From: Rhizorhabdus histidinilytica
GTDB taxonomy: Bacteria > Pseudomonadota > Alphaproteobacteria > Sphingomonadales > Sphingomonadaceae
NCBI RefSeq assembly: GCF_900167915.1
Contig: NZ_FUYM01000004.1
Location: forward strand, 434,001-498,000
DNA: 64,000 bases
Reading direction: 5' to 3'
Position numbers and translations under genes: made by a program. Positions 13,177-30,348 of this stretch are shown here, piece after piece (within the stretch, counting starts at the first letter, position 1; each line of letters begins with the position of its first letter). Below the pieces are notes generated by a model. The model ran no database searches. It was not told the DNA's origin and was given only the letters and a program-made list of their open reading frames with translations.

Positions 13177-14031
13177 ATGTCGAACTATCCGAAGCCCGAC
13201 GGCCCCACCCTGCGGGCCATCTACGAGAAAGCCGCCCGCATCCAGTTCAACGACGAACGGGTGATCAAGGAGATCAAGGCCGGCAAGCTGGTGATGCCCT
13301 TCTACAGCACCCGCGGCCAGGAGATCATACCGGCAGCGATCTCGGTCTCGCTGACCGACGACGATTATGTGAACACCATCTATCGCGGCGGCCACGACCA
13401 GATCGCCAAGGGCTTCCCGCTCGCCGATTATTGGGCCGAGATCGCCGGCCGCGTGACCGGCGCATGCAAGGGCAAGGGCGGCCCGATGCACCTGACCTAC
13501 CCCGCCAAGGGGATCATGGTGACGACCGGCATCGTCGGCAGCACCGCCCCCATCGCCAACGGCCTGGCCTGGGCGGCCAAGCTCGAAGGCAAGGGCCGCG
13601 TCACCATCGCCAATTTCGGAGACGGCGCCGCCAATATCGGCGCGGTCCACGAGGCGATGGAAGGGATCCGGGTCGACGGCAACGATCCCGACGAGATGTA
13701 CGGCGTGGCGCGCTGGGCGATCGATCGCGCCCGCGCCGGCGAGGGTCCGACCTTCATCGAGGCGACCACCTTCCGCTTCAACGGGCACCTGATCGGCGAG
13801 GCCGGCGGCTATATGGACAAGGAACTCTACGCCGCCTCGCAGACGCGCGATCCGATGCCGATCCTGCGCCGCCGCCTCGTCGAGGAGGGGATCGTCGCGG
13901 CCGGGGAACTCGACGCGCTCGACGCCTCGATCCGCGCCGAGATCGATGCCGCGGTCAGGACGGCCTACGCCGCCGACTATCCCGATCCTTCCGAACTGAA
14001 GGTCGACGTGCTCGTCGACGCGATCGCCTGA
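13177..14031 (+). CDS. ThDP-dependent dehydrogenase E1 component alpha subunit with internal in-frame deletion
   Basis: 284-residue AcoA/PdhA-type E1 alpha subunit. Family members are near 325-330 residues. The start of the thiamine diphosphate motif is present (NFGDGAANIGAVHEAM, GDG at 148-150). It is followed directly by EGIRVDGNDP, a segment that normally lies about 44 residues further on. The missing part includes the Asn-Asn that closes the GDG-x(24-27)-NN motif and helps hold ThDP and Mg. The rest is well conserved (FYSTRGQE, YRGGHDQIAKG, GKGGPMHL, FRFNGH), and the frame is intact. As written the protein may not bind ThDP normally. The start has a strong GGAG region. E1 beta starts 14 bp after the stop. 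Confidence 0.85.
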   Translation: MSNYPKPDGPTLRAIYEKAARIQFNDERVIKEIKAGKLVMPFYSTRGQEIIPAAISVSLTDDDYVNTIYRGGHDQIAKGFPLADYWAEIAGRVTGACKGKGGPMHLTYPAKGIMVTTGIVGSTAPIANGLAWAAKLEGKGRVTIANFGDGAANIGAVHEAMEGIRVDGNDPDEMYGVARWAIDRARAGEGPTFIEATTFRFNGHLIGEAGGYMDKELYAASQTRDPMPILRRRLVEEGIVAAGELDALDASIRAEIDAAVRTAYAADYPDPSELKVDVLVDAIA

Positions 14032-14045
14032 GCGGAGACACGACC

Positions 14046-15029
14046 ATGACCGACCCCGTCAAGATGACGATGATCGACGCGATCAACCGCGCCCTCCACG
14101 ACGCGATGGAGGAGAATGGCAGGATATTGCTGCTCGGCGAGGACGTCGCCGATCCCGAGGACGGCGGCGTCTTCGGCGCGACCCGGGGGCTTTCCACCAG
14201 GTTCGGCGAGGACCGGGTCAAATCCACCCCGATCTCCGAACAGGCGATCGTCGGCGCCGCCATCGGCGCGTCGCTGGTCGGCTACCGCCCGGTCGCCGAG
14301 GTGATGCTGATGAACTTCATGACCGTCGCGATGGACATGCTGGTCAACCATGCCGCCAAGCTGCGCTTCATGTCGGGCGGCCAGACGAGCGTGCCGATCA
14401 CGGTCCGCACGATGACCGGCAGCGGCCTCTCGCTCGGTGGCCAGCACAGCGATTTCGTCGAGGCCTGGTTCGCGCACACCGCCGGCATGAAAGTGGTGAT
14501 CCCGTCGAGCGCCAACGACGCCTACGGCCTGCTCCGTTCGGCGATCGACGACGAGGATCCGGTGATCTTCGTCGAGACGCTGCCGATCTACTGGGCGCAG
14601 GGCGACGTCAGCTTCGAGCGGATTCCGATCGGCAGGGCCCGCGTGTGCCGCGAGGGCAGCGACCTGACGATCATCGCCTATGGGCAGATGGTGCCGCACA
14701 GCCTGACCGTCGCGGCCGAGCTCGCCAAGCAGGGCAAGTCTGTCGAGGTGGTCGACCTCCGGACCGTTTCCCCCTGGGACCGGGACACCGTGCTGGCGAG
14801 CGTCGCCAAGACCGGCCGCGCGCTGATCGTCCATGAGGCGGTCAAGGAATATGGCGTCGGCGCGGAGATCGCCTCGGTGATCGGCGAGGCGCTGTTCGGC
14901 CAACTCAAGGCGCCGATCCAGCGGCTCGGCGGCGCCTATTGCCCGGTGCCGTTCAGTAAGCCGCTCGAACAGGCCTTCGCCCCCAATGCCGACAGCATCG
15001 GCGCCGCGGCGACCGCGCTGCTTTCCTGA
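14046..15029 (+). CDS. ThDP-dependent 2-oxoacid/acetoin dehydrogenase E1 component beta subunit
   Basis: 327-residue transketolase-fold beta subunit (AcoB/PdhB type). Conserved stretches include LLLGEDVADPEDGGVFGATRG, TPISEQAIVGAAIG with the Glu that activates the ThDP aminopyrimidine, GGQHSDFVEAWFAHTAG, and the C-terminal transketolase domain (VDLRTVSPWD, VHEAVKEYGVGAEIA). Length is normal, unlike its alpha partner. It is expected to form an alpha2-beta2 E1 with the upstream gene and to pass an acyl or hydroxyalkyl group to a lipoyl arm. ATG 14046 lies 14 bp after E1 alpha; the lipoyl protein gene follows after 22 bp. Confidence 0.93.
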   Translation: MTDPVKMTMIDAINRALHDAMEENGRILLLGEDVADPEDGGVFGATRGLSTRFGEDRVKSTPISEQAIVGAAIGASLVGYRPVAEVMLMNFMTVAMDMLVNHAAKLRFMSGGQTSVPITVRTMTGSGLSLGGQHSDFVEAWFAHTAGMKVVIPSSANDAYGLLRSAIDDEDPVIFVETLPIYWAQGDVSFERIPIGRARVCREGSDLTIIAYGQMVPHSLTVAAELAKQGKSVEVVDLRTVSPWDRDTVLASVAKTGRALIVHEAVKEYGVGAEIASVIGEALFGQLKAPIQRLGGAYCPVPFSKPLEQAFAPNADSIGAAATALLS

Positions 15030-15051
15030 CGAAGAGGATCGGAACCGGACG

Positions 15052-15282
15052 ATGACGACACAGGTGCTGCTGCCCAAGCTGGGCTTTTCGATGAGCGAGG
15101 GCGAGCTGAGCGAATGGCTGGTGCCCGACGGGGCGATGGTCACCGAGGGCCAGCCGCTCTATGCGCTCGAAAGCGAGAAATCGACGCAGGAGGTCGAGGC
15201 CCCGGCCAGCGGCCGGCTGCGGATCATCGCCGCCATCGGCCAGACCTATGAGGTCGGCGCCGTCCTGGCCGAGATCGAATAA
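15052..15282 (+). CDS. Stand-alone lipoyl/biotinyl-domain carrier protein
   Basis: 76-residue protein consisting only of a lipoyl domain: VLLPKLGFSMSEGELSEWLV, then the swinging-arm hairpin with Lys43 in LESEKSTQEVEAP, then GQTYEVGAVLAEIE. Normally this domain is fused to the E2 acyltransferase; here the frame stops right after it, and no E2 catalytic or E3-binding domain follows. It probably acts as a free lipoyl carrier for the E1 subunits encoded upstream, working with an E2/E3 from elsewhere or in another reaction type. Intact frame and spacing make it look like a deliberate small gene, not a remnant. Confidence 0.88.
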   Translation: MTTQVLLPKLGFSMSEGELSEWLVPDGAMVTEGQPLYALESEKSTQEVEAPASGRLRIIAAIGQTYEVGAVLAEIE

Positions 15283-15348
15283 TTGAGGCTTGCTTTCTGG
15301 AAGGCGCGGCCCAAGCCTGGGCGGCATCATGCCGCTCCAGGTTCAGCC

Positions 15349-16167
15349 ATGACCGATACTGCCGCCGGCGGCGCCACGCCCCTACGCTATTCGGCGCCAA
15401 CGACCATCGAGGAGATGGTGGCACTGCTCGCCGGGGACCGGGGCGCAACGCTGATCGCCGGCGGTCAGAGCCTGTTGCCGCCGCTGCTGGCCGGCGTCGG
15501 CGCCGCGACCCATCTCGTCGACATCCGCAACGTCGAGCGGCTTCGCGCGATCGAGATCGGCGAGGACGAGATCTTCATCGGCGCGGGCAACCGCTTCTCC
15601 GACCTGCTGCGCGGCCCGGTCGCCGGACTGCTGCCCGCGCTCGCCGAGGCGCTGCGCCATGTCGGCACGACCACCATCCGCAACCGCGCCACGCTCGGCG
15701 GCAACATCGCCTGGGCCGATCCCCGCGCCGAGGCGCCGATGGTGCTGATGCTCCACGGCGCGACGGTGCGGACCGACCGCCGCGCCATCCCGATGGCGAC
15801 GCTGCCCGTCGGTCCTTTCAAGACCCGGCTGGCGCGCGACGAGGTCATCCTGGGCGTGACCGTGCCGCGCCGTCCCGATCCCGCCGCGATGCGCTTCGCC
15901 GAACTGCTCGACCGCCACAGCGCCGGCAAGGCGGTGGTGTCGGTCGCGGTCCGACCGGCCGGCGACGCGATCGACTTCGCGATCGCCGGGCTGCTCGACC
16001 GGCCGGTGACCGCCACCGCGCCGGTCGCCTCGCTCGATCGCAGCCTGAGCGAGATCGAGCGCAGCCACCGGCCGCTCGAGGACCCGTTCCATTCCTACCG
16101 CTACCGCCGCGAAATGGCGCTCGTGCTGCTGCATCGGGCGCTGGCGGCCTCGATCGAAGGACGTTGA
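15349..16167 (+). CDS. Molybdenum hydroxylase FAD-binding medium subunit (CoxM/XdhB type)
   Basis: 272-residue FAD subunit of the xanthine dehydrogenase/CO dehydrogenase family. It shows both FAD motifs: LIAGGQSLLPPLLAGV, and TTIRNRATLGGNIAWADPRA, plus the C-terminal CO_deh_flav domain ending in FHSYRYRREMALVLLHRAL. It would accept electrons from the 2Fe-2S subunit encoded at 5963. The usual order is M-S-L or M-L-S in one operon; here M sits 6.5 kb from the S-L pair, between a lipoyl protein and an acyl-CoA ligase. ATG 15349 is the only good start. The ligase starts 4 bp after its stop. It is the sole FAD-subunit gene in the window. Confidence 0.9.
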   Translation: MTDTAAGGATPLRYSAPTTIEEMVALLAGDRGATLIAGGQSLLPPLLAGVGAATHLVDIRNVERLRAIEIGEDEIFIGAGNRFSDLLRGPVAGLLPALAEALRHVGTTTIRNRATLGGNIAWADPRAEAPMVLMLHGATVRTDRRAIPMATLPVGPFKTRLARDEVILGVTVPRRPDPAAMRFAELLDRHSAGKAVVSVAVRPAGDAIDFAIAGLLDRPVTATAPVASLDRSLSEIERSHRPLEDPFHSYRYRREMALVLLHRALAASIEGR

Positions 16168-16171
16168 GAAC

Positions 16172-17713
16172 ATGTATCCCGCGCCTCCGCCACAAGGCCA
16201 ATCACTGTCGCTGATGCTGCGGCGATCCGCCTTGCGCCACCGCGACAAGACGGCGCTGGTCTTCGAGGACGACGCCTGGAGCTATGCCGAGCTCGACCGG
16301 CTGGTCGACGAGCTGGGCGAAGGCCTGTTGCGGCTCGGGGTCGAGGCCGGGGATCGGGTCGCGATCCTCGCCCGCAACAGCCATGCCTTCCTGGCGCTGC
16401 GCTTCGCGGTCGCGCGGATCGCGGCGGTGCTGGTGCCGGTCAACGTGATGCTCGGACCTGCCGAGGTCGCCTATGTCCTCGACCATTCGGGCGCGCGGCT
16501 GCTGTTCACAGACGCCGCGCTGCTCCCCCTCGCCCGCGAGGCCACGCCGGCCACGGTCGAGGAGATACTGATCCTCACCGGCCGGGACGACAGCGGCGAA
16601 TGCCGGGGCTGGCGCGCATTGCTCGTCCCCGGCGGGGCGCCCGGCGATCGCGCCGACGGCGCCGACCTGCTCCAGATCATCTACACCAGCGGCACCGAGA
16701 GCCGGCCCAAGGGCGCGATGCTCAGCCATGCCGCGGTGCTGTGGCAATATCAGAGCTGCCTGTTCGATTGCGACTGGTCGCCCGACGTGATCGCCCTGCA
16801 CGCCTTGCCGCTGTTCCACTGCGCCGCGCTCGACGCGATGGCCGGCCCCGCCCTGCTCGCCGGTGCGACCAGCATCATCGCGGCGTCGCCCGCACCCGAG
16901 CTGATCATCCCGATGATCGAGCGCCACCGCATATCCTCCTTCTTCGCCCCTCCGACGGTATGGATCGCGCTGCTGCGCTCCCCGCTGTTCGAGAAGCACG
17001 ATCTTTCGTCGCTGACGCGCGGCTTCTATGGCGCAGCGATCATGCCGGCCGCGGTGATCGACGAACTGGGCGCACGGCTGCCGGGCTTGAGGCTCTGGAA
17101 CCTCTACGGCCAGACCGAGATCGCACCGGTCGCGACGGTGCTTCGCCCCGAGGAGCATGCGGCCAGGCCGACCTCGGCAGGCCGCCCGACGCTCCACGTC
17201 CAAACCCGGGTGGTCGACGACCAGATGCGCGACGTCGCCCCCGGGGAGATCGGCGAGATCGTCCACCGTTCGCCCCAGCTCCTGTCCGGCTATTGGCGGC
17301 AGCCCGAGATCAGCGAAGCGGCCTTCGCGGGCGGCTGGTTCCATAGCGGCGACCTCGCCACGATCGATGCGGAAGGCTTCATCACCGTCGTCGATCGCAA
17401 GAAAGACATGATCAAGAGCGGCGGCGAGAACGTCTCCTCGCGCGAGGTCGAGGAGGCGATCTACGCCCATCCGCATGTCTCGGAGGTTGCGGTGATCGGC
17501 CTTCCCGACCCCCATTGGATCGAGGCAGTGACCGCCTTCATCGTCCCACGCAACGGCGCCGATGTGTCGGCGGAGGACATCCACGCGCATTGCGCGGGCC
17601 GCCTCGCCGGCTTCAAGCGGCCCAAGCGAATCTGCTTCGTCCCCGAACTGCCGCGCAACGCCGCCGGCAAGATCCTCAAACGGGAGCTGCGCGATCAGGC
17701 GCCGGGCGCCTGA
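16172..17713 (+). CDS. AMP-forming acyl-CoA synthetase/ligase
   Basis: 513-residue ANL-superfamily ligase that activates a carboxylic acid to its CoA thioester through an acyl-AMP. Motifs are the P-loop variant TSGTESRPKGAMLSH (usually TSGTTGxPKG), NLYGQTE, YWRQPE, HSGDLATIDAEGFITVVDRK, and the C-terminal lid lysine in RNAAGKILKREL. Length is normal. It follows the FAD subunit by 4 bp and is the last gene in the plus-strand run starting at 13177. The product may feed the ThDP/lipoyl enzymes or beta-oxidation. The fatty versus aromatic acid specificity cannot be judged by eye. Confidence 0.92.
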   Translation: MYPAPPPQGQSLSLMLRRSALRHRDKTALVFEDDAWSYAELDRLVDELGEGLLRLGVEAGDRVAILARNSHAFLALRFAVARIAAVLVPVNVMLGPAEVAYVLDHSGARLLFTDAALLPLAREATPATVEEILILTGRDDSGECRGWRALLVPGGAPGDRADGADLLQIIYTSGTESRPKGAMLSHAAVLWQYQSCLFDCDWSPDVIALHALPLFHCAALDAMAGPALLAGATSIIAASPAPELIIPMIERHRISSFFAPPTVWIALLRSPLFEKHDLSSLTRGFYGAAIMPAAVIDELGARLPGLRLWNLYGQTEIAPVATVLRPEEHAARPTSAGRPTLHVQTRVVDDQMRDVAPGEIGEIVHRSPQLLSGYWRQPEISEAAFAGGWFHSGDLATIDAEGFITVVDRKKDMIKSGGENVSSREVEEAIYAHPHVSEVAVIGLPDPHWIEAVTAFIVPRNGADVSAEDIHAHCAGRLAGFKRPKRICFVPELPRNAAGKILKRELRDQAPGA

Positions 17714-18786: not shown

Positions 18787-19197
18787 TTACTTGGCGGGGG
18801 TAGTGAGCGGCTTGTCATCGGAATCCACGACAAAGACCGCGAGAAGCTTCGCCGGCTTCGTTGCGCTCGCGTTCCGGCTGATCTGATGCCGTGCTTTCGG
18901 CGTTTCGTACCAACCCTCGCCCGCCTTGTAGACGCGAGCCTCTTCGCCATTCACCTTCGACTCGATCTCACCCGACAGGACATAAGCGTAGATGAAGGCT
19001 GACGGCGCATGGGTGTGCGAAGGGGAAGCGGCACCGGGCGCATAGTCGACTTCGACGATGACGAGCGACTTGCCAGGAACGTTCGTGATCGCTCGATCGA
19101 ATTTGGGCGTGACGGTTTCAGCATGGCCGTCATGGGCCAGGGCCGCCCCTGCAAGGGTCGCGACGAAGACGACGGCGAGAGCGATTGGTATCTTCAT
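18787..19197 (-). CDS. Secreted single-domain cupin protein
   Basis: 136-residue cupin with a clear signal peptide (MKIPIALAVVFVATLAGAALA, followed by HDGHAET). The small barrel contains HTHAPSAFIYAYVLSGEIES and a later EGWYETPKARHQISRN, giving His residues at the metal-binding positions of cupin motifs 1 and 2. ATG 19197 has GGAGAAGGTC upstream. It is the first gene of the cupin-AhpD pair and divergent from the MocR regulator. Likely a periplasmic stress-response or metal-dependent protein; no substrate can be inferred. Confidence 0.85.
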   Translation of the reverse strand: MKIPIALAVVFVATLAGAALAHDGHAETVTPKFDRAITNVPGKSLVIVEVDYAPGAASPSHTHAPSAFIYAYVLSGEIESKVNGEEARVYKAGEGWYETPKARHQISRNASATKPAKLLAVFVVDSDDKPLTTPAK

Positions 19198-19222
19198 GAC
19201 CTTCTCCTTCGGGTGGGTTGAA

Positions 19223-19278
19223 GATACCACCGGTCAGGCCAGGAAAAAGTACCAAGAAACTCAAGAAATAATGTACCA
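19223..19278. promoter_or_regulatory. Three phased TACCA direct repeats in the MocR/cupin divergent promoter
   Basis: TACCA occurs at 19225-19229, 19250-19254 and 19274-19278, spaced 25 and 24 bp; the last two are GTACCA. They lie between the cupin start (19197) and the MocR start (19271). MocR regulators are known to bind direct repeats near their own gene, so these are operator candidates. The third copy overlaps the first codons of MocR if ATG 19271 is used. Confidence 0.45.
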
Positions 19279-20722
19279 CGGCATGATGAGCGAGCCCCTC
19301 AACCTGACCCTCGACCGCACGGCGAAGACATCTTTGACCGAGCAGATCCGAAGCGGCGTGACCACCGCCATCGAGCAAGGCGTGCTGGAGCCGGGGGCAC
19401 GTTTGCCATCGTGGCAGGATCTCGCTGCGCAACTCGGCGTTTCGCGGGGCACCGTGCGGGTCGCATATGAGAAACTGGCGGCAGCCCAATTGATCGAGGC
19501 AACGCGAGCGGCCGGCACGCGCGTCACCCGACGGCCTCGTGGCATCGAGAAGAGCGAGCCTCCGCCGAATCCGGGCTCGTTCATCAGACTCTATCAGGAA
19601 ATGACGCAGGGCCCCGCGCTATACCAGATGGGGATACCGTCGGCCGAGACGTTTCCTGCCACCTTGTTCGCGCGGATCCGCGCCCATGCAGTCCGGGCGG
19701 AGACAAGCGCTGCGCCGCTTTATCCAGATCCTCGCGGCGAGGTCGAGCTCAGACGGGAGATAGCGGGTCACCTCGCCGTCTCGCGAGGCATCAATTGTTC
19801 GGTATCGCAGGTCATCGTGACGGGAGGCTTCAGTGCGGGGCTCGGCCTGACACTGAGCGTGCTCCGCCTCGCCGGCGAGCGGGCCTGGGTCGAGGAGCCG
19901 GGTTTTCCATGGTCCAGAAAGGGGCTGGAACTTGCGGGTCTGTCCCTTGCCCCGATCCCAGTCGATAGCCAGGGCATCGATGTCGACGACGGCCTTCGTC
20001 GTCATCCCGATGCGAGGCTCGTCCTCGTCACCCCCGGTCAACAAGCGCCGCTCGGTTCCACCTTGTCGCTCGATCGGCGCATTCGCCTGCTCGAATGGGC
20101 CAATGCGTGCGAAAGCTGGATCATCGAAGATGATTATCTGAGCGACCTGCAACTATCGGGCAGGGCCGCGCCGGCGCTCGCGTCGCTCGATCGCGGCGGG
20201 CGCGTCATTCATATCGGCTCTTTCAGCAAGACGCTCAGCCCGAGCATTCGCCTCGGCTTTGTGGTCGCGCCCGTCGAACTGGCTTCCCGGTTCGCCGAAG
20301 TGGCGGCATGCCTCGCTCCGCCCCCCGGACCTGCCGTCCAACTCGCGACGGCGGAGTTCATGCGGGAAGGACATTATATGCGCCACCTCCGCCGCACGAA
20401 GCGCGCTTACGCCGCCAAACGCGACGCATTGTTGGAATGCCTCCGTACGTCGGCGCGCGCCGGGCAGATCGCCGCGCCCGGCTTGGCGGTACTGCTGAGA
20501 CTGCCGGAGGGAACATCGGACGTAGCGGTGACGCGTGAAGCTTCCGCGCTCGGCATGTCGCCGTCGCCGCTGTCGACATGGTATTCGTCGACCGAAAACA
20601 TGGAAAGCGGGCTTCTGCTCGGTGTCGCGACCGCGCCGGCGCGAAACCTGGCCGAATCCTGTGCTCGGCTCTTCGAGCTGATCGATCGCTCTAGCTACGC
20701 CGCTGACGGACCATTGCCTTGA
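19271..20722 (+). CDS. MocR-type (GntR HTH + aminotransferase class I) transcriptional regulator
   Basis: About 483-residue PLP-dependent regulator. The N-terminus is a GntR winged helix (TSLTEQIRSGVTTAIEQGVL, RLPSWQDLAAQLGVSRGTVR). After a linker comes an aminotransferase fold with the PLP lysine segment IGSFSKTLSPSIRLGFVVAP and IIEDDYLSD. PdxR, TauR and GabR have this layout and sense PLP-linked ligands. In-frame ATGs at 19271, 19283 and 19286 are all possible; no strong ribosome site separates them. It is divergent from the cupin-AhpD pair. The 3' end overlaps the DUF72 gene by 32 bp on the opposite strand. Confidence 0.9.
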   Translation: MYHGMMSEPLNLTLDRTAKTSLTEQIRSGVTTAIEQGVLEPGARLPSWQDLAAQLGVSRGTVRVAYEKLAAAQLIEATRAAGTRVTRRPRGIEKSEPPPNPGSFIRLYQEMTQGPALYQMGIPSAETFPATLFARIRAHAVRAETSAAPLYPDPRGEVELRREIAGHLAVSRGINCSVSQVIVTGGFSAGLGLTLSVLRLAGERAWVEEPGFPWSRKGLELAGLSLAPIPVDSQGIDVDDGLRRHPDARLVLVTPGQQAPLGSTLSLDRRIRLLEWANACESWIIEDDYLSDLQLSGRAAPALASLDRGGRVIHIGSFSKTLSPSIRLGFVVAPVELASRFAEVAACLAPPPGPAVQLATAEFMREGHYMRHLRRTKRAYAAKRDALLECLRTSARAGQIAAPGLAVLLRLPEGTSDVAVTREASALGMSPSPLSTWYSSTENMESGLLLGVATAPARNLAESCARLFELIDRSSYAADGPLP

Positions 20723-21553: not shown

Positions 21554-23095
21554 TCAGTGGGAAAGCGATGGCGGATAGCAGCTCCATTCGACAGCACGAT
21601 CGATATGGAAGGCGCCGACCCCAGTCACGAACCCTACATGGCGGTACGGCAGCGCCGTGAGTTCGACGCTGAGCGAGCCCGGCGCGTTGCAGTAGATCGT
21701 ACGCCGCGCGATCGGATCGAACCGCGCCCGGAAGTGCTGGCTCGACTTGACCACCACGACATCCTTCCCGGCAAGGTCGATACCAAGTCCGGTAAAACAT
21801 TCGGGCGAGAAGACCTGCTGCCGGATGCTGTTGATCACGATATCGATCCCGCCGACGCGCAACCATATCGCAAGCCCCAGCGGGTCGCTCGGGACGTCGC
21901 TGAACACGCGCTGCCGAAGGTCGTCGCGGATCGCGACCACCTCGGCACCGGCCAGATCGACCGGATCGCCCGAAAGAGCGCCGATCTTCCCGCCGATCCT
22001 CAGGTCCATCCGCGCACCGACTCCGGCATCGGCGGCGATGATGGCCGCCTGCGGATCCCAGATCATGCCGATCGCGGCGCGATCGACCTTGCGATCGAGC
22101 AGCTCGCGCAACAGGAAGCTGCTGTCGCAGGCGGCGCCTCCGCCGGGATTGTCAGAGCTGTCGGCGATCACCACGGGTCCCGGTCCACGCGGTGTCGCCA
22201 GCGCTTCACGGACCGCCTCGCCGACGCCGAGGCGCTCGGCTGGTGCCGCTTCGAGATTGTCCACGAAGCGGCCGGCGACCTCATCTGCAATGGCCTTCGC
22301 CGCGCCCTCCGCTCCCGGTGCCGCTACGATCAGGACCGAAGCGCCGGTGCGCTCCCAATCCGACCAGGGAAAGCCGTGCATCAGCGTCACCGAGAGAATA
22401 TGATCGCGCTCCTCATAGGCCGAGAGCGCGGCTACCAGGCTGCGCATCGGCTCCTCGGTCGTCCCCTGGAGGCTGAGGATGGGGATCGAGCGCCACACGG
22501 TGCATGGCCGCACCCTTCCCGCCGCCATCTCGGCGAGTATCGCGACCAGTTCCCCGGCGCGGGGACGATAGTCGACATGGGGATATTCCTTCACGCCGAC
22601 GATCACCGTACCGCTTCCGATCATCTGCGGAGAGACGTTGCCATGCAGATCGAGCAGGGCGCCGATCGGCATGTCGGGCCCGACGATCCGGCGGACATGC
22701 GCCAGAAGATCGCCTTCGCAATCGTCCAGCCCCTGGGCCATCATCGCCCCATGGAGGTTGAGCAGGACCATGTCGACCGGCTGCGCCGCCCGCAATCCTT
22801 CGAGGATTTCCTCGCGCAGCTCCTCATAGAGCGCCCGCGTCACCGGTCCGGAGGGCTGGGTCCAGAAGCAGGGACCCTCGACCACGGAGAAGCCGCGCTC
22901 GCGGGCCACGGCAACGGCGTCGCCATATCCGGGAAAGGCCAGCGCCGCGGCGCGACCGGCCTCGTCGCCGGGCCGGTAGCAGACGTCGCTCTCGAAGCTG
23001 CGCATGCTGGTGGGGATCGGCGAGAAGCTGTTGGTCTCGTGCGACAGCCCGGCCACGTAGATCCGCAGAGGTTCGGGACCCGTGCGCCCGTTCAC
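21554..23095 (-). CDS. MlrC-family M81 (DUF1485) metallopeptidase-like protein
   Basis: 513-residue member of the M81/MlrC family, whose best-known member cleaves linearised microcystin peptides. Metal-site motifs are all visible: His19-Glu20 (LSHETNSFS), His115 (NLHGAM), Asp149/His151 (LLDLHGN) and His173/Asp175 (KEYPHVDY). The C-terminal DUF1485 half includes IADSSDNPGGGAACDSS. The GTG at 23095 overlaps the stop of the upstream serine hydrolase (GTGA), so translation is coupled. The pairing with a serine beta-lactamase-fold hydrolase and an MFS transporter resembles mlrC-mlrB-mlrD. The substrate is not known; it need not be microcystin. Confidence 0.88.
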   Translation of the reverse strand: MNGRTGPEPLRIYVAGLSHETNSFSPIPTSMRSFESDVCYRPGDEAGRAAALAFPGYGDAVAVARERGFSVVEGPCFWTQPSGPVTRALYEELREEILEGLRAAQPVDMVLLNLHGAMMAQGLDDCEGDLLAHVRRIVGPDMPIGALLDLHGNVSPQMIGSGTVIVGVKEYPHVDYRPRAGELVAILAEMAAGRVRPCTVWRSIPILSLQGTTEEPMRSLVAALSAYEERDHILSVTLMHGFPWSDWERTGASVLIVAAPGAEGAAKAIADEVAGRFVDNLEAAPAERLGVGEAVREALATPRGPGPVVIADSSDNPGGGAACDSSFLLRELLDRKVDRAAIGMIWDPQAAIIAADAGVGARMDLRIGGKIGALSGDPVDLAGAEVVAIRDDLRQRVFSDVPSDPLGLAIWLRVGGIDIVINSIRQQVFSPECFTGLGIDLAGKDVVVVKSSQHFRARFDPIARRTIYCNAPGSLSVELTALPYRHVGFVTGVGAFHIDRAVEWSCYPPSLSH

Positions 23096-24690
23096 GCGTC
23101 CGCTCCCGCCGTCCGCTCGAAACGCAGCGCCTGCATCCGGCCCGCGGTGACCGAAAGGCGGTCCCCGCCTTCCGAAAAGGTCAGAATTGCGCCGATCGCA
23201 CCAATCGGCCCCAGCGAGATCGCCTTCCAGATGCGATCGGCAAGCGGTTCGAGCCTGTAGCGGGCGCTGCCCTGCGGCCCCCACATCGTCATGGTCGGCC
23301 CGCCTTCTTCGTCGGCTATCTGGAGGCCGGTGTCCGCGATGGACGAACCGTAGCGGCCGCAGCGACTGCCCAGGCGGCCTCCTTCGACCACGTCGAGCGG
23401 ATCGAGACGGTGCCGATGGCCGAATTCCATGAAGCCAAGTCCTTCATCCTCGAAGGTCACGCTCTGCTGGCAGAACAGCAGGATGTCGGGGAGCTGGAGC
23501 ACCCCTTGGTCGTCGGCGCGCATGGGCACCGGCGGCCCGCCGTCGATCGCCACGAGCTGCATCTCGCCAGTCTCGCTGAGCTCGACCACGCGGCCGTTCG
23601 CCGCCGAAACGAAGATGCCGGTCCGTCGCTCGACCGCCTTGCCCTCGGGAACGGGATCGAGTCCTTCGACACAGGCGTCGATGACGCGGTTGGCGAGATC
23701 GGCGGCGCTCACGTCGGCGCGGTTGCTGGCAATCGTGATGTCGAGCCCGGCGGCCGGCACCTTGATCATCTGCGAATTGCCGGCCAGGACGCCGCCGCCG
23801 TGCGACAGGGTCTCTACCCCGCGATAGGGCATGGTGATGAGCCCGAGGCCGTACCCGGTCGAGATGCCGTTCGCCAGGCGCATCGGCTCACGCATCAGTT
23901 GCCAGCTTCCCGCGGAGCCGACGATCGGCGCGTCCATGTGCTTCATCCAGCGCAGCATGTCGTCCATCGTCGATACGATCCCGCCCGCGCCACTCACCTC
24001 CATGCCCATATAATCGCGGGTGAAGCGCCCGTCGGCCCGACGGAAATGCAAGGTGGCGCTATTGGGGACGAAATCCGTGTCCCAGCGGCGCAATAGCGTA
24101 TCGTACATGCCGACCGGCTCGAATATCCGTTCGCGCAGCACATCGTCGAGCGATTGGCCGGTGATATTCTCGATCGCGGCGGTCAACAGCATGTAGCCGC
24201 CGTTGTTGTAGCTCCAGCTGGTTCCCGGCGCGAAGTCGCGATCGTCGATGGTTCGGTAGAAATCGATCAGCTCGGCGTCGGTCGCCGGCGTGGAAGGGCC
24301 CTGGAGCAGAAGGGTGATCGCCATCACGTCGCGAAGGCCGCTGACATGGCCCATCAGCTGGCGCATCGTCGCGTCGCGGCTTGCCGCGTGCAGGCCCGGC
24401 ACATGCGCACCGACCGGATCGTCGATTCCGGCACGCCCCTCCTCGCACAGCAGCATATAGGCGAGCGCGGTGAAATGCTTGGTCGTCGAGCCGATCCGCA
24501 TCCGCATCGACGGGCTCAGCACCACCGGCAGTTCCATATGGGCGAGGCCGAAGCCCTTGCGGTAGACGGGCTTGCCGTCGATCGCGATCGCCACCGCCAC
24601 GCCGGGCTGCCGCCCCTGATCGACCGGCGCGAAGATCGCGTCGACCTTGCCCTCGTCCAGCGTTGCAACCATCGACCGTTGGGGCATCAT
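23092..24690 (-). CDS. Beta-lactamase-fold serine hydrolase (MlrB-like peptidase candidate)
   Basis: 532-residue penicillin-binding/class C beta-lactamase-family hydrolase. Catalytic motifs are Ser68-x-x-Lys71 (IGSTTKHF), Tyr161-x-Asn163 (SYNNGGYMLL) and His297-Gly-Gly (LSHGGG). A C-terminal extension of about 170 residues follows, as in esterase EstB-like, DD-peptidase-like and MlrB-like enzymes. No signal peptide is apparent, so it is likely cytoplasmic, consistent with peptides entering through the transporters encoded beside it. The stop overlaps the GTG of the MlrC gene. D-amino-acid peptidase activity is common in this fold, which matches the DAO-type flavoprotein in the same run. Specificity is inferred from context only. 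Confidence 0.85.
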   Translation of the reverse strand: MMPQRSMVATLDEGKVDAIFAPVDQGRQPGVAVAIAIDGKPVYRKGFGLAHMELPVVLSPSMRMRIGSTTKHFTALAYMLLCEEGRAGIDDPVGAHVPGLHAASRDATMRQLMGHVSGLRDVMAITLLLQGPSTPATDAELIDFYRTIDDRDFAPGTSWSYNNGGYMLLTAAIENITGQSLDDVLRERIFEPVGMYDTLLRRWDTDFVPNSATLHFRRADGRFTRDYMGMEVSGAGGIVSTMDDMLRWMKHMDAPIVGSAGSWQLMREPMRLANGISTGYGLGLITMPYRGVETLSHGGGVLAGNSQMIKVPAAGLDITIASNRADVSAADLANRVIDACVEGLDPVPEGKAVERRTGIFVSAANGRVVELSETGEMQLVAIDGGPPVPMRADDQGVLQLPDILLFCQQSVTFEDEGLGFMEFGHRHRLDPLDVVEGGRLGSRCGRYGSSIADTGLQIADEEGGPTMTMWGPQGSARYRLEPLADRIWKAISLGPIGAIGAILTFSEGGDRLSVTAGRMQALRFERTAGADA

Positions 24691-24721
24691 CTCTTCTCCA
24701 TCGACACGGAACGGACCAACC

Positions 24722-26047
24722 TCATTGACGCGCCGGGCCGGTGAGGGCGAGGTCAGGCGACACTCCCGTCCCGGCCGAGGGGCGGCGCGTGGTCCACCAG
24801 AGGCACAGCGACGCGAGCATCGCCAATGGAGCGCCGACCAGCGCCATGCTCTCGCCGAGCCTGGCCTCGCCGCCCAGCCATTCGCTCACGAGCGCGACGA
24901 GCGGTCCCGACAGAGCCCCGCCAAGCGACACGGTGACCACGTACAACCCCATCACCAGGCCTCGCAATTCGTTGGGAATGCGGAAGTTGATCGCGATGAC
25001 GGGAATCGAGATCGCGATCGCATAGGCGACGATGAAGGTCACCGCGGCGATCGCGAAGCCGATCAGGCTGGGCATCATCGCCAGGAAGGAGGCCGGGGCG
25101 CACAGCAGCGCCGCGATCGCGGCGGGCCGGGTGATCCCCCCGCGGTCGCCGCGACGAAGCAGGTGATCGGCCAGCTTTCCGCCCGCCAGCAGCCCGACGA
25201 CGCTCGCCCCCAGCGAGACCGCTCCGAACCAACCGGCGAAATCGGCGGGCTGCTGTCCGTAGAGACGCGTGAGGGCGGGCGGTATCCAGCTCAATATGCC
25301 GGTCGACATTCCCGACAGGAAGGTCGTTCCACCGAGCAGCGGAAGCAGGAAGGTGCGAAAGGCCCAGAGTTCCACGAGGGTACCGCCGCCCCGGTCGCGA
25401 ACCTCCATGCGCGGGGGTTCGCGCAGCAGGGCGAGCAGGGGAATGAGCAGCACGCCGCCGGCGGCGAAGGCGAGCGACAGCACCCGCCAGGCGCTTAGCC
25501 CGAAGGGCAGGCCCCCCGGACCGGCGGAGACGGCCGCCAACGCCCCGAGACCAAGGCCGCCGATGATGATGGCGCCGCCCTGCCCCAGCCCCTGGCCGAT
25601 CGCATAGCTGCTGGTCGCCATCGCGCGATGGCGCGGGGCGAAATAGTCGCCGATCAGCGACATCGCCGCCGGCAGCGTGATAGCGTTGGCGATGCCGAGA
25701 ACCGCCTTGCTGAGCATGAGCGGCCACAGGCCGCCCGACAGGGCGGTTATCACGAGGCCGGTGCACCAGAGCAGCATGGCCGCCACCAGCATCCAAACCC
25801 GGTTGACCCGGTCGACGAGCATTCCCATGGGAATGCAGAACAGCGCATAGGCCGCGTAGAGGACGGTGGTGTTGGCGAGGCCCACCTGGACGTCGGAAAG
25901 ACCGAGTTCATGTTTGATCGGCTCGACGAGCAGCGAGATCACATAGATGTCCATCGCCGTGAAGAAGGCGATAGCGACGAACAGTATCTGCGCGCGGCGC
26001 GCCACCCCAAGGTCCGGATAGTGCCGATCCCCGATGTCGTCTTTCAC
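24722..26047 (-). CDS. MFS transporter
   Basis: 441-residue 12-helix major facilitator protein. The loop between helices 2 and 3 reads IPMGMLVDRVNRVWM, a normal MFS signature, and a second-half counterpart is KLADHLLRRGDRG. The start is a GTG at 26047 with AGGA upstream. It lies between the serine hydrolase and the TonB receptor in the same direction (31 and 65 bp gaps), so it probably moves the substrate from periplasm to cytoplasm in step with the outer-membrane receptor. In position it corresponds to MlrD of the microcystin cluster, though MFS subfamily membership cannot be decided by eye. Confidence 0.9.
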   Translation of the reverse strand: MKDDIGDRHYPDLGVARRAQILFVAIAFFTAMDIYVISLLVEPIKHELGLSDVQVGLANTTVLYAAYALFCIPMGMLVDRVNRVWMLVAAMLLWCTGLVITALSGGLWPLMLSKAVLGIANAITLPAAMSLIGDYFAPRHRAMATSSYAIGQGLGQGGAIIIGGLGLGALAAVSAGPGGLPFGLSAWRVLSLAFAAGGVLLIPLLALLREPPRMEVRDRGGGTLVELWAFRTFLLPLLGGTTFLSGMSTGILSWIPPALTRLYGQQPADFAGWFGAVSLGASVVGLLAGGKLADHLLRRGDRGGITRPAAIAALLCAPASFLAMMPSLIGFAIAAVTFIVAYAIAISIPVIAINFRIPNELRGLVMGLYVVTVSLGGALSGPLVALVSEWLGGEARLGESMALVGAPLAMLASLCLWWTTRRPSAGTGVSPDLALTGPARQ

Positions 26048-26112
26048 GGGAGGTCCTTTGCGAAGGAAGCAGGCGGGACGCGGCCGTCTGAAGCGGCTGC
26101 GCCCCTCCCCGC

Positions 26113-28323
26113 TCAGAAGCCGGTGGTCAGCTTCAGGCCGATGGTGCGCGGCTGCAGCATCGTCACTTGCGCAGGTCCGCCGAGGCTCGACAGGATGGTC
26201 TGGGCGCTCAGCTGGCCGCGGACATCGAGAAGGTTGCGCACATAGAGCTGCGCATCGACCGGTCCGACCGTGATCCCCGCGCGGACATCGATCGAGGTGT
26301 AGGCCGGTAGGTGATATTGCGGCACGCCGGGATTGGCGTCGAAACTCGCCTCGCGGTCCGAAACATAGCGCAGCGTGGCGCCGAGCCGCGGTTCGAGCGG
26401 ACTGTCGACCAGCCGATAGTCGGCGTTGAGCGCAGCGGTCAGGTGCGGCGTATTGGGCAGCCGCTCGCCCTTGCGGGCGCCGAGCGCCGCATTGGCTTCG
26501 GCGACATAGCCGTCATTATAGGCGAACGCGCCGCTGAACAGCCATCGGCGGCTGGGCCGTGCCGTGAGGGTCAGCTCGCTGCCCTTGATGTGCGCCCCGC
26601 CGGCATTGAGATAGGTCGACACGCCGGCCACCTGGCTGAGGAGCTGGATATTCTTCCAGTCGATGTAGAAGGCCGAAAGATCGATACCGAAGCTCCGATC
26701 GGCCGTCTCCGCCTTTATGCCGATCTCGTAGCTGTCGAGCGTATCCGACGCGTAGGTGTCGGGAGCGCCGCGCAGGCCGGTGGCCGGATCGATCACGAGG
26801 AAGTTGGGCCCGCCGGGACGATAGCCGGTGGCGAAGCGCGCATAGGCGGTGACGTGGCGGCTGAACTTGTAGCGCGCATTGGCGAGATAGGTGGTCACGC
26901 CTTCTTTCGACGTCCGACGCGGGCCGGAGGTGACAAGCAGCCCCGCGGCGTCCTGCTCGAACGCCTGCTTGTTGCGGGCGTAGCGGATGCCTCCGGTCAC
27001 GTCGAACCTGTCGGTCAGATGCCAGGTGACGTCGCCGAACAGCGCATATTCGCGGTAGGTGCTACGGATGCGCGCGTCGACGAGGTTGACCGGCAGCGGC
27101 GCGAGGCCGGCACCGAAGACGTTGCCGAACTGGTGCAGCAAGCTCTTCTCGCGGGTGTAGAAGCCGCCCAGCAGCCATTCGATCGGCTTGCCGCTTTCCG
27201 ACGCCAGCCGGATCTCCTGAGTGAACTTCCGCGTCCGGGCGAGCTCGTCGATGCCCACGGCCTGCGCGGGCACTCCGAACAGGAGGTTCAGCAGCGTCGC
27301 ATAGACAGCCGATCCGTCGGTGGTCTGAAACGCCTTGTTCGACTGGTAGCTGCTGATCGAGCTCAGCGTCGCGCCGCCGAAGTCATAGGCGAGCGTGCCG
27401 CTGACGAGCCGGAAATCGTTGCGGAACGGTTCGGCGAGCGGGTGAGCCTGATCGAGCGTGCCGGCGATGCGGTCCCCGGCAAGCGTATAGGCCGTATAGC
27501 CGTTGCCGTCGCGGCGGATGTTCTGCGCGAAACCGGTCAGGCGGACGGTCAGCTCATCGGTTGGACGGGCGTAGAGCTCGACCCTGCCACCGTAGACCTT
27601 GCCGCGATCGACATCCTTCCGCCCGGTCGCGACATTGTCGCTGAAGCCGCCGTCGCGCGAATAATAGCCGCTCGCGCGGACCGCGAGCTTGTCCCGCGCC
27701 ACGGGGGCGTTGAGGGTTGCGGCGACGTCATAGCTGGTGCCGCCCTGGCGGGTATCGGCCAGACCGAGCTGAGCGCTGCCGCCGAAATCCGACAGCGACG
27801 GCGTGCGCATCACATATTTGAGCACGCCGCCCATCGAGCTCGCGCCGTAGAGCGTACCCTGCGGGCCGCGCAGCACCTCGATCCGATCGAGGTCGAACAG
27901 GCCGACGTCGAGCGCGCGGCGCACGCCGTTGGCGAAGGCGGAGCTCGACCCATAGGGGACGTCGTCGACGTAGATGCCGACGGTCGGCCCCACGTCGGCG
28001 CCGGTGGTCACGCCACGCAGGCTGATCTGCGAAGTGCCCGCGCCCTGCGTCGTGAACTGCAGGCCGGGAACGGTGTTGGCGAAATCGGCGAAATCGGTGG
28101 CCGCCAGCTTGGCCAGATCCTCGGCGGCCAATGCCGTCACCGACTGCGGGGCCTCGATCAGCCGTTCGCTGCGCTTTTGCGCGGTGACGACGATGTCGCC
28201 GGGCATCGCGTCCTCGCCGGACGGAGAGGCCCCTCCCTGCGCATGGGCGGGCGCCGAGGCGGCGAGTAGCGCGATCGTGCTGATCGCTAGCAACCGGATT
28301 TCACGGGCAGTTGGAGTGAGCAT
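26113..28323 (-). CDS. TonB-dependent outer-membrane receptor
   Basis: 736-residue receptor with signal peptide (LLAISTIALLAASAPAHAQ), a plug starting at GDIVVTAQKRSERLIEAPQS and carrying RIEVLRGPQGTLYGASSMGG, and a barrel ending RTIGLKLTTGF. There is no STN domain, so no sigma-factor signalling is expected. ATG 28323 follows GGGGGACATCG. It is followed by the MFS, serine hydrolase and MlrC-family genes, and preceded by a DAO-type flavoprotein whose stop is 44 bp away. It likely imports the peptide or peptide-like substrate of this island. Confidence 0.95.
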   Translation of the reverse strand: MLTPTAREIRLLAISTIALLAASAPAHAQGGASPSGEDAMPGDIVVTAQKRSERLIEAPQSVTALAAEDLAKLAATDFADFANTVPGLQFTTQGAGTSQISLRGVTTGADVGPTVGIYVDDVPYGSSSAFANGVRRALDVGLFDLDRIEVLRGPQGTLYGASSMGGVLKYVMRTPSLSDFGGSAQLGLADTRQGGTSYDVAATLNAPVARDKLAVRASGYYSRDGGFSDNVATGRKDVDRGKVYGGRVELYARPTDELTVRLTGFAQNIRRDGNGYTAYTLAGDRIAGTLDQAHPLAEPFRNDFRLVSGTLAYDFGGATLSSISSYQSNKAFQTTDGSAVYATLLNLLFGVPAQAVGIDELARTRKFTQEIRLASESGKPIEWLLGGFYTREKSLLHQFGNVFGAGLAPLPVNLVDARIRSTYREYALFGDVTWHLTDRFDVTGGIRYARNKQAFEQDAAGLLVTSGPRRTSKEGVTTYLANARYKFSRHVTAYARFATGYRPGGPNFLVIDPATGLRGAPDTYASDTLDSYEIGIKAETADRSFGIDLSAFYIDWKNIQLLSQVAGVSTYLNAGGAHIKGSELTLTARPSRRWLFSGAFAYNDGYVAEANAALGARKGERLPNTPHLTAALNADYRLVDSPLEPRLGATLRYVSDREASFDANPGVPQYHLPAYTSIDVRAGITVGPVDAQLYVRNLLDVRGQLSAQTILSSLGGPAQVTMLQPRTIGLKLTTGF

Positions 28324-28367
28324 CGATGTCCCCCTTCTCTTGATGGGCTTCCCTGGACGATGTGGTT

Positions 28368-29531
28368 TCACGAAAGGACTTCGGCGCGGAGGCGTGCGGG
28401 CGAGAGGTCCGACGCGTCGATACCCTGATCCTGAAGGTCCGCAGGAACGGAGCGGCCGCTGATCAGCTCGGCTGCCAGTCGCGACAAGGCGGGCGAAGTC
28501 TGGATGCCATAGCCGCCTTGCCCGACCAGCCAGAAGAAGCCGGGTGCATCGGATGCGAAACCGACCACCGGCGTCTTATCGGCGACGAAGGTGCGCAGGC
28601 CCGCCCAGCTATGGGTGATGCGGCGCACCGGCAAGTCGAGCGCCTGCTGCACCCGGTCCACCGCGATCGCGAGGTCGAGTTCCTCCGGCGAGGCGTCACA
28701 CGGTTCCGATGGGGTCTCGTCGGCGGGCGAGATCAGGATGCGGCCGCCTTCGGGTTTGAAATAGAATTGCTCGGCGATGTCGATCGCTGCCGGCCAGCGC
28801 GACGGATCGACGCCCGCCGGAGCGTCGACGGTGAGCGCGCTTCGGCGCTTGGGCTGAAGGCCGACGGGACATATCCCCGCAACCGCCGCGATGCGATCGC
28901 CCCAGGCGCCGGCGGCGTTGACCAGGATCGGGGCGCGGAAGCTCCGCCCGGAGGCCGCGACCAGCCAGTCGCCGTTGGCCCGCTCGATCGCCTCGACCCC
29001 GCTCGAGCAATGCAGGCTTCCGCCATTAGCACGATGGCGCCTGAGGAAATGCTGGTGGATCGCCGCGACGTCGAGATCGAAGGCGCAGCGTTCCTCGAGC
29101 GCGGCGACGACATGGCCCGGCTTCAGCAAAGGGATACGCTCGCGCAGCACATCCCCGGAGACGCGGGACACGAATGGTCCGACCGTCGGCTGGCCGGCGA
29201 AGGCCTCGAGGGCGTCGAGCTGATCGGCACGGGCGATATGCACGCAACCGCGCGGATGGGCGAAATCCTGCCCGTCGGCGCCGGCCAGGAAGAAATCACG
29301 GCTCGACCGGGTCAGCGCGCGGATCGAGGCGTTGCCATAGACTTCGGAGTGCAAAGCTGCCGAACGGCCGGTGGCATGATAGCCCGGCTGAGCCTCCTGC
29401 TCGAGCAGCACTACCTGGTGGCTGGTAGACAGCTCGGCGGCGACCCCGGCCCCGGCTATTCCTGCCCCGATCACGATGACGTCGGCTTCGAGATGCACGT
29501 CCAACCCATTTCGTTCGAATCGATGGGTCAT
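28368..29531 (-). CDS. DAO-family FAD-dependent oxidoreductase (D-amino-acid/glycine oxidase type)
   Basis: 387-residue flavoprotein with an N-terminal Rossmann fold (DVIVIGAGIAGAGVAAELS, a GxGxxG dinucleotide site, then a Glu at the end of strand 2 in LLEQEA) and the family ATG motif (GYHATGRSAALH). The C-terminus has SWAGLRTFVADKTPVVGF and WLVGQGGYGIQTSP, as in DadA, sarcosine oxidase and glycine oxidase types. It would oxidise an amine or amino acid to an imine. It is first in the island's minus-strand run and divergent from the XRE-cupin regulator. The start codon overlaps a palindrome (29531-29543), so autorepression by the regulator is plausible. Confidence 0.9.
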   Translation of the reverse strand: MTHRFERNGLDVHLEADVIVIGAGIAGAGVAAELSTSHQVVLLEQEAQPGYHATGRSAALHSEVYGNASIRALTRSSRDFFLAGADGQDFAHPRGCVHIARADQLDALEAFAGQPTVGPFVSRVSGDVLRERIPLLKPGHVVAALEERCAFDLDVAAIHQHFLRRHRANGGSLHCSSGVEAIERANGDWLVAASGRSFRAPILVNAAGAWGDRIAAVAGICPVGLQPKRRSALTVDAPAGVDPSRWPAAIDIAEQFYFKPEGGRILISPADETPSEPCDASPEELDLAIAVDRVQQALDLPVRRITHSWAGLRTFVADKTPVVGFASDAPGFFWLVGQGGYGIQTSPALSRLAAELISGRSVPADLQDQGIDASDLSPARLRAEVLS

Positions 29532-29720
29532 TTCTGACAGAAAAATTTCTAATTGGAAAATTCTTTCTGATCAGGACTTACATAAACCGCTTTGCAATGA
29601 TCTCGCAAAGCCTCCGCCTTTCGCTGTTCACCATGATTTCCGGCTAATAGATGCCTTCCACCAGCCATTTATCCGGTATGCAGCCGTCACCGGATACGCT
29701 ACTGCGATCCTGATCAGGAC
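29531..29720. promoter_or_regulatory. Divergent control region with repeated CTGATCAGGAC sites and TTTCTG palindrome
   Basis: The 11-mer CTGATCAGGAC, containing the palindrome CTGATCAG, occurs at 29567-29577 and again at 29710-29720. One copy is 36 bp before the flavoprotein start, the other 20 bp before the XRE-cupin start. The perfect palindrome TTTCTG-A-CAGAAA is at 29531-29543, and TTTCTGA recurs at 29564-29570, 33 bp away. The zone between is AT-rich compared with its surroundings. These are good operator candidates for the XRE-cupin regulator. Confidence 0.55.
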
Positions 29721-29739
29721 AACATCATTGGAATCGAGG

Positions 29740-30348
29740 ATGTCTCGCGACGAAAAAACCCTGGGGGCCGTCCTCACCAAGCTGCGCACGCGCAACGGCT
29801 GGACGCTCAAGGAAATGAGCCAGCGCAGCGGCATCCCCATGTCGACCTTGTCGAAGGTCGAGCATGGCCGCCTTTCGCTGACCTATGACAAACTGCAAAA
29901 GCTCGGCGAACGGCTCGACATCCGGATGGCCGATCTCTTCGCGGAGGATGAACGCGAAGCGAGTCCGGTACCGATCATGGGCCGGCGGAGCATCGGCACA
30001 ATGGAATCGGCCGTTCGCGTCGACACGCCCAATTATGAATATCGTTATGTCTGCACTGAATTGCGCAACAAGCGCATGGTACCGGTCCTCACGCGGGTTC
30101 ACGTGCGCTCGATCGCGGACTTCGGCGATCTGGTCCGTCATCCGGGGGAGGAATTCATATATGTGGTGAAGGGCGCCCTTATCGTCCACACCGAATTCTA
30201 CGATCCGGTCCGGCTCGACGAGGGTCAGTCGCTCTACATCGATTCAGGCATGGGCCATGCCTATATATGCGCCGAGGGATATGACGAGGTCCTGTTGCTC
30301 GGCGTGATGTCCAGCGCCGAGGAACTGCCTCCCATCCGGGGTGCATAG
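29740..30348 (+). CDS. XRE-family regulator with C-terminal cupin domain
   Basis: 202-residue regulator. Residues about 9-65 form a helix-turn-helix of the XRE/Cro type (LGAVLTKLRTRNGWTLKEMS, SGIPMSTLSKVEHGRLSL). Residues about 110-195 form a cupin (HPGEEFIYVVKGALIVHTEF, DSGMGHAYICAEG), giving a PuuR/SutR-like sensor-repressor layout. ATG 29740 is the start because longer frames run through the AT-rich promoter. It is divergent from the DAO-MFS-peptidase run and likely controls it by binding the repeats in the intergenic region. The cupin would sense an amino acid, amine or similar small ligand. Confidence 0.9.
   Translation: MSRDEKTLGAVLTKLRTRNGWTLKEMSQRSGIPMSTLSKVEHGRLSLTYDKLQKLGERLDIRMADLFAEDEREASPVPIMGRRSIGTMESAVRVDTPNYEYRYVCTELRNKRMVPVLTRVHVRSIADFGDLVRHPGEEFIYVVKGALIVHTEFYDPVRLDEGQSLYIDSGMGHAYICAEGYDEVLLLGVMSSAEELPPIRGA

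Follow-up and report, generated by a model that had tools for sequence, protein, structure and literature searches.

What would a bacterium degrade with an M81 metallopeptidase and an S12 serine hydrolase, the superfamilies of MlrC and MlrB in the microcystin (mlr) cluster, when both genes follow a gene for a predicted D-amino-acid dehydrogenase? This question is raised by a six-gene locus in a 64,000-nucleotide stretch of DNA from Rhizorhabdus histidinilytica (the window, to which positions refer unless a locus is named), whose draft genome comprises 5.47 Mb in 59 contigs. Judging from its predicted proteins, the locus is probably a regulated catabolic unit for the uptake and cytoplasmic breakdown of D-amino-acid-containing peptides or N-acyl amides. 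The grouping of its genes is more than chance, and the same gene kinds recur together in other genomes.

Gene content and recurrence of the locus

An earlier reading of the window (the original prediction) had described five genes on one strand and a divergent XRE-cupin gene, and Pfam analysis found all six at their place. The locus contains the following features:

28368..29531, minus strand: predicted DauA-like flavin adenine dinucleotide (FAD) D-amino-acid dehydrogenase (PF01266, phmmer match to DauA 3nyc, kept residues)
26113..28323, minus strand: TonB-dependent outer-membrane receptor, whose N terminus looks signal-like by eye (barrel PF00593, 137 bits; plug PF07715, 78.2 bits; start from the gene caller)
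24722..26047, minus strand: inner-membrane transporter of the MFS_1 family of the major facilitator superfamily (MFS) (PF07690)
23092..24690, minus strand: S12 serine hydrolase, D-aminopeptidase-like (PF00144, NCBIfam, motifs)
21554..23095, minus strand: M81 metallopeptidase (PF07364, PF07171, metal-site residues)
29740..30348, plus strand: divergent XRE-cupin transcriptional regulator (HTH_3, Cupin_2; start from the gene caller)
29708..29719, no strand: palindrome TCCTGATCAGGA as a candidate operator, about 20 bases upstream of the XRE start
29565..29576, no strand: TTCTGATCAGGA as a second copy of the candidate operator, about 34 bases upstream of the dehydrogenase start

The minus-strand genes run from 29531 to 21554 in the order dehydrogenase, receptor, transporter, S12 and M81, and are separated by short gaps. 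The stop codon of S12 and the likely start of M81 share the bases GTGA (23092-23095); the listed M81 open reading frame is over-extended, with the GTG at 23095 as the likely start. According to a codon-score gene caller, the XRE gene probably starts at 29740 and not at 29476.

In Novosphingobium organovorum (locus L068), the XRE, DauA-like, TonB receptor, MFS, S12 and M81 genes stand in the same order as in the window, with identities of 71, 62, 59, 51, 56 and 67%, respectively. This locus additionally has a second M81 gene (43%) between S12 and M81, and then a gene for a small protein that falls into the RidA blast cluster. By our count thresholds, all six kinds are also present in Aerophototrophica (L069), Brevundimonas (L073) and Scleromatobacter (L132), and gene calling found them at L039, which is outside the threshold count (weak MFS match).

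Among 80 named M81 loci, the best 80 of at least 572 relatives, a DauA-like gene was found within about 10 kb in 35; XRE-cupin genes are present in 36, S12 in 24, TonB receptor in 20 and MFS genes in 8. The same loci contain MlrF-family amidohydrolases (16), ABC peptide transporters (28), TRAP transporters (5), two or more M81 genes (14) and members of the RidA (8), DgcN (3) and DgcA (4) groups; family counts such as those of RidA, DgcN and ABC refer to blast clusters of gene-caller products, from each of which one or two members were examined with Pfam. Restricting the set to the 52 loci that span 18 kb or more gave 30 with DauA-like, 30 with XRE, 19 with S12, 17 with TonB receptor and 7 with MFS genes. 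In 20 of the 80 loci, the tblastn matches of DauA and M81 share a strand with less than 150 bases between them, and in a version with an ABC transporter, largely from Variovorax and Cupriavidus, both genes are adjacent on the same strand. The hosts of the related loci are taxonomically varied. Lack of co-occurrence elsewhere had been named as a point that would speak against the original prediction; the search that it proposed found such gene sets in other genomes.

The rarity of DauA-like genes was estimated from 16 genomes, which were picked since they hold window-type or compound loci. Their roughly 90 Mb contain 25 DauA-like matches (E 1e-15), or one per 3.6 Mb, which corresponds to an expectation of about 0.6% per 20 kb, i.e. 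about 0.4 of 80 loci versus the 35 observed; this value is arithmetic from the 16 genomes and not a control run for all 80. Exactly one DauA-like match was present in 11 of the 16 genomes, and in 10 of these 11 it was located at the M81 locus, so that the linked gene is the only copy found there. On the M81 tree (102 rows, including that of L061, a locus from the window's genus that was found through its flavoprotein), the presence or absence of the DauA linkage changes at least 13 times.

Relation to the mlr microcystin cluster

The window M81 protein, the only one found in its genome by an M81 family search, contains the domains PF07364 (284.6 bits) and PF07171 (MlrC_C, 176.6 bits) and matches the MlrC structure 7ylq with 332 bits and 39.5% identity over 463 aligned positions. 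Its residues E14, H109, D143, H145 and H167 (counted from 23077) match the zinc-site residues of MlrC and are invariant in 13 aligned sequences; with both domains and all five residues, it was assigned to the M81 family. These five residues surround the zinc in MlrC, as an excerpt of PMC12474180 describes, and MlrC mutants of D167, H169 and H191, which correspond to D143, H145 and H167 of the window protein, lose activity according to an excerpt of PMC4810221. M81 genes are rare in the window's order (20 of 296 genomes at E 1e-30, the window's own included).

Score and phylogeny both set the protein apart from MlrC. It reached 342.6 bits with the MlrC equivalog model NF041767 (cut-off 999), compared to 1172.3 bits for the true MlrC of L040, a locus from a genome of the same family. 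In a 117-row tree, built without L084, L098 and L137 (whose genomes are already represented by other loci) and without L047 and L028, it belongs to a 14-row clade with full support in the Shimodaira-Hasegawa-like approximate likelihood-ratio test (SH-aLRT 100), and MlrC is found elsewhere on a long branch. Joining MlrC with the window clade was disfavoured in the approximately unbiased (AU) test (p-AU 1.2e-5, 59 rows). After adding L047, which among the relatives is second only to L040 in similarity to MlrC (45%), p-AU was 0.0035 (60 rows) and the window clade stayed intact (100); these p values are optimistic because the tested clade was picked from the tree. Within the 14 rows, the window included, DauA-like, S12 and XRE-cupin genes were each found nearby in 12, a TonB receptor in 10 and an MFS transporter in 6. 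A position of M81 outside MlrC, which the original prediction had itself listed, together with a lack of peptidase activity, as counting against it, was therefore observed, and its term mlr-like is not supported as a statement of kinship for this enzyme.

The S12 hydrolase (PF00144, 200.9 bits) carries the SxxK (S68/K71), YxN (Y161/N163) and HxG (H297/G299) motifs of S12 enzymes, whose residues are invariant in 18 aligned sequences. Its first match among solved structures was 2qmi, a beta-lactamase related to penicillin-binding proteins, and the third was the D-aminopeptidase 1ei5 of Ochrobactrum anthropi. The protein resembles this D-aminopeptidase in its best-matching curated NCBIfam model (NF009622), its similar length and its S12 motifs, but it stays well below the cut-off of the model (136 vs 443 bits). 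A 55-row tree, which excludes L084, L098, L137, L047 and frames of less than 330 residues, groups the window S12 with D-aminopeptidase, MlrB and other S12 proteins of the fetched loci (SH-aLRT 98, 28 rows; long-branch warnings). MlrB is a periplasmic S12 protein. The window S12 is only 22% identical to the MlrB of L040 in the multiple alignment (29.5% over 332 residues in a local one), and no signal-like N terminus was seen by eye; the MlrB-like label it had been given is not supported. The position of MlrD had been ascribed to the window transporter. MlrD belongs to the PTR2 family, which was matched by the MlrD of L040 and by two relatives; the sole Pfam match of the window transporter was PF07690 (MFS_1, 127.2 bits), and PTR2 was not matched.

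The missing MlrA, in contrast, was confirmed: no match was found in the window's genome at E 0.01, and the positive control, the source genome G179, matched at 1.6e-228. Among 16 genomes holding related loci, only Sphingosinicella microcystinivorans had a match and the other 15 had none. Because of these tests for MlrA, MlrC, MlrB and MlrD features, the assignment to the mlr cluster was rejected.

What the locus has in common with mlrCADBEF are an M81 and an S12 peptidase and an MFS transporter; at the L040 copy, an MFS_1 transporter and a TonB receptor are also found alongside the mlr genes. In contrast to mlrCADBEF, its six genes include neither mlrA nor a PTR2 transporter nor an MlrE- or MlrF-type gene (mlrE and mlrF are similar to dipeptidase and D-aminoacylase, according to an excerpt of PMC6256522), its M81 belongs to another clade, its S12 lacks a signal-like N terminus, and the locus additionally encodes a DauA-like dehydrogenase and an XRE-cupin regulator. 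Beside the true mlr cluster (L040 11085-16247) are an MFS_1 transporter, an AMP-binding enzyme and a TonB receptor, and the transporter and receptor fall into the same blast clusters as those of the window, so that the two loci may be distantly related. Together with the joint presence of MlrC and MlrB superfamily members, this neighbourhood in a genome of the same family would fit a divergent mlr-type pathway for cyanobacterial cyclic peptides such as microcystins, in which a different enzyme would open the ring instead of MlrA. We regard such a pathway as quite unlikely, given that MlrA is missing from all but one of the genomes concerned, MlrC is outside the window clade, the transporter does not match PTR2 and the hosts are so varied.

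Besides its true mlrA, Sphingosinicella microcystinivorans carries a gene related to the window M81 (L081 942-2412, in two tblastn pieces), and none of the other five gene kinds was found on this 12.4 kb locus. One of the four DauA-like matches in this organism is about 12 kb away from mlrA (G321:C2:81691-96009).

The DauA-like flavoprotein and D-amino-acid genes near relatives

The flavoprotein contains a DAO domain (PF01266, 172.4 bits), and its closest solved relatives are two DauA sequences, which phmmer matched near full length with 303.6 (3nyc) and 301.6 bits; the third-ranked relative reached only 41.9 bits. DauA-like matches are common in the window's order (277 of 296 genomes, E 1e-50), and a second copy with 45% identity is present elsewhere in the window's genome. 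The DauA residues R222, R305, Y249, Y53, E246 and G332 are kept, among them all four positions that we used to define the DauA type (Arg222, Arg305, Tyr53, Tyr249), and H48 is replaced by Leu. Glu87, our marker for an arginine-preferring DauA, is replaced by Cys. In DauA, R222 and R305 form the carboxylate network and E87 and E246 are the guanidinium contacts, as stated in an excerpt of PMC11193025.

The same pattern was found in the 44 DauA-like homologues (the window protein and those of other fetched loci) that were compared: none of them deviates at R222, R305 or G332, all have Tyr at position 249, Glu246 is kept in 41, Glu87 is absent in 43 with a gap in the remaining one, and His48 occurs in none (one gap). 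Five of the 44 loci (L059, L060, L062, L063 and L064) came from the flavoprotein search and show no M81. The conserved carboxylate arginines together with the absent Glu87 suggest that side chains other than arginine are recognized. The absence of Glu87 makes a D-arginine pathway unlikely, though Glu246 is kept. The window protein is thus similar to the D-arginine dehydrogenase DauA of Pseudomonas aeruginosa in its near full-length homology and its carboxylate residues, but differs in the replaced Glu87 and His48 and in the linkage of its gene to peptidases.

Genes for D-amino-acid metabolism were also found beside relatives of the window M81. One stretch of Paucibacter (L139) contains two M81, three S12, a DauA-like and DgcN-DgcA genes; the DgcA passes its NCBIfam cut-off (420.7 vs 400) and the DgcN falls short (448.8 vs 480). 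In Stenotrophobium (L128 1387-18745), two M81, two S12 and a DauA-like gene occur with two pairs of DUF1611 and enolase-fold genes (DgcN-DgcA type). An excerpt of PMC12363236 describes a pathway for acidic D-amino acids and the corresponding amides, with DgcN as its key gene. Locus L038 (1913-13427) combines a proline racemase, another DAO, a RidA-family protein, a TonB receptor, an MFS transporter, an XRE regulator, M81, an M19 dipeptidase and an aldehyde dehydrogenase; RidA-family proteins speed up the DauA reaction, as an excerpt of PMC5619798 reports. In a few relatives, genes of the DgcN-DgcA pathway for D-glutamate thus lie beside those for M81 and S12, but the pathway is absent from the window cluster. 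At another site in the window's genome (G000:C10:4818-6823), away from the cluster, a DUF1611 (DgcN-type) gene adjoins an MlrF-like amidohydrolase match.

These neighbours bear on two other explanations. The locus could serve the salvage of bacterial cell-wall peptides with D-Ala and D-Glu, as the D-aminopeptidase-like S12, the DgcN-DgcA genes near M81 in a few other loci and the second model of the L139 DgcA, an L-Ala-D/L-Glu epimerase (253.6 bits, below the cut-off of 343), would allow. This is unlikely, since Pfam detected no muropeptide amidase or LD-carboxypeptidase among the six genes and TonB uptake is unusual for muropeptides. It is very unlikely that the hydrolases act on non-peptide amides or esters and that the flavoprotein oxidises an amine or imino acid instead of an alpha-D-amino acid. 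The broad S12 and DAO families, the best regulator model (PuuR, below its cut-off) and the proline racemase with another DAO at L038 are in agreement with this possibility; the carboxylate-binding arginines, kept in 44 of 44 DauA homologues, and the D-amino-acid genes near relatives argue against it.

A predicted pathway and its control

From the gene content, residues, phylogeny and recurrence described above we infer a substrate, a transport direction, an order of steps and a mode of control. The TonB receptor would carry a peptide across the outer membrane and the MFS transporter across the inner one, as their families suggest. A cytoplasmic S12 would cut at the carboxyl side of a D-residue, like D-aminopeptidase. 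The residues Glu and Ala at the MlrC and MlrB cuts of microcystin are D-residues. MlrC cuts at Adda-Glu and MlrB at Ala-X, as given in excerpts of PMC12474180 and PMC4810221. Like MlrC at the Adda-Glu bond, the window M81 would cut before a D-residue, and both hydrolases together would free D-residues. DauA is known to oxidise D-amino acids to imino acids, which then yield keto acids and ammonia; its homology and kept residues make it plausible that the window flavoprotein would do the same with the freed D-amino acids. Of the original prediction, a pathway for D-amino-acid peptides with uptake across both membranes and a regulator, the gene content fits and the mlr kinship is not supported. 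Its statement that no such system has been described is not contradicted by our literature search, in which no described system of this kind was found in open-licence papers.

The weakest step is the control: the XRE-cupin protein (HTH_3 36.5 bits, Cupin_2 37 bits; best model PuuR with 43.4 bits, cut-off 211) would sense a molecule of the pathway and control both promoters via the paired palindromes. The region between the divergent starts contains one perfect 12-base palindrome and a near copy, and at one mismatch or less only one further place was found in the 64 kb. This gives six matches versus 0.31 expected, with each palindrome counted on both strands. The core TGATCA is missing from 39 of 45 other XRE upstream regions, and no inverted repeat was detected in the Novosphingobium organovorum region at the settings used, so that the paired palindromes are a weak local proposal for an operator. 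In the Variovorax-type loci L095, L096, L104, L108, L109, L113 and L117, a common palindrome TTGCGTATACGCAA is found upstream of XRE-cupin as a candidate operator. Near the cluster end, the window encodes a GntR-aminotransferase fusion (19196-20722), a MocR-type regulator, which has no blast cluster in relatives. Further away (13177-17713), genes for E1 dehydrogenase and transketolase-type subunits are found; after these come genes for a molybdopterin-dehydrogenase FAD subunit and for an AMP-binding enzyme.

Several observations weigh against a pathway for D-amino-acid peptides. The S12, MFS and TonB receptor families are functionally broad, all six activities and the substrate are predictions, and the calls on signal peptides were made by eye. 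According to an excerpt of PMC11193025, D-Glu and D-Asp are not oxidised by DauA, and the window cluster has no DgcN-DgcA pair, although the genome contains the DUF1611 gene at another site. By our thresholds, 45 of the 80 named M81 loci, and 22 of the 52 with at least 18 kb, have no DauA-like gene. Within the window's order, the 23 M81 loci around hits show a DauA-like gene only at L039 and another DAO cluster in six; this rarity and the single-copy linkage pull in opposite directions. Tree-aware paired-trait tests were not significant, with median p values of 0.125 (DauA with XRE), 0.125 (S12 with TonB receptor) and 0.5 (TonB receptor with ABC).

Little has been published on M81 enzymes apart from MlrC in the literature searched, and the finding that M81 genes are repeatedly linked to a gene for a DauA-like dehydrogenase leads to a prediction for this widespread family that can be tested directly. 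It is conceivable, if doubtful, that M81 enzymes of the window's branch generally cut at D-residues and that the gene set moves horizontally and forms a widespread system for the salvage of nonribosomal peptides with D-amino acids, of which mlr would be one specialised offshoot. Paucibacter toxinivorans degrades microcystins without mlr genes, according to an excerpt of PMC8068134. If the idea is true, such clusters, for example the gene set of Paucibacter L139, could explain peptide breakdown in bacteria without mlr genes. The locus thereby offers a lead on the recycling of D-amino-acid peptides and on how mlr-negative bacteria might degrade cyanobacterial peptides.

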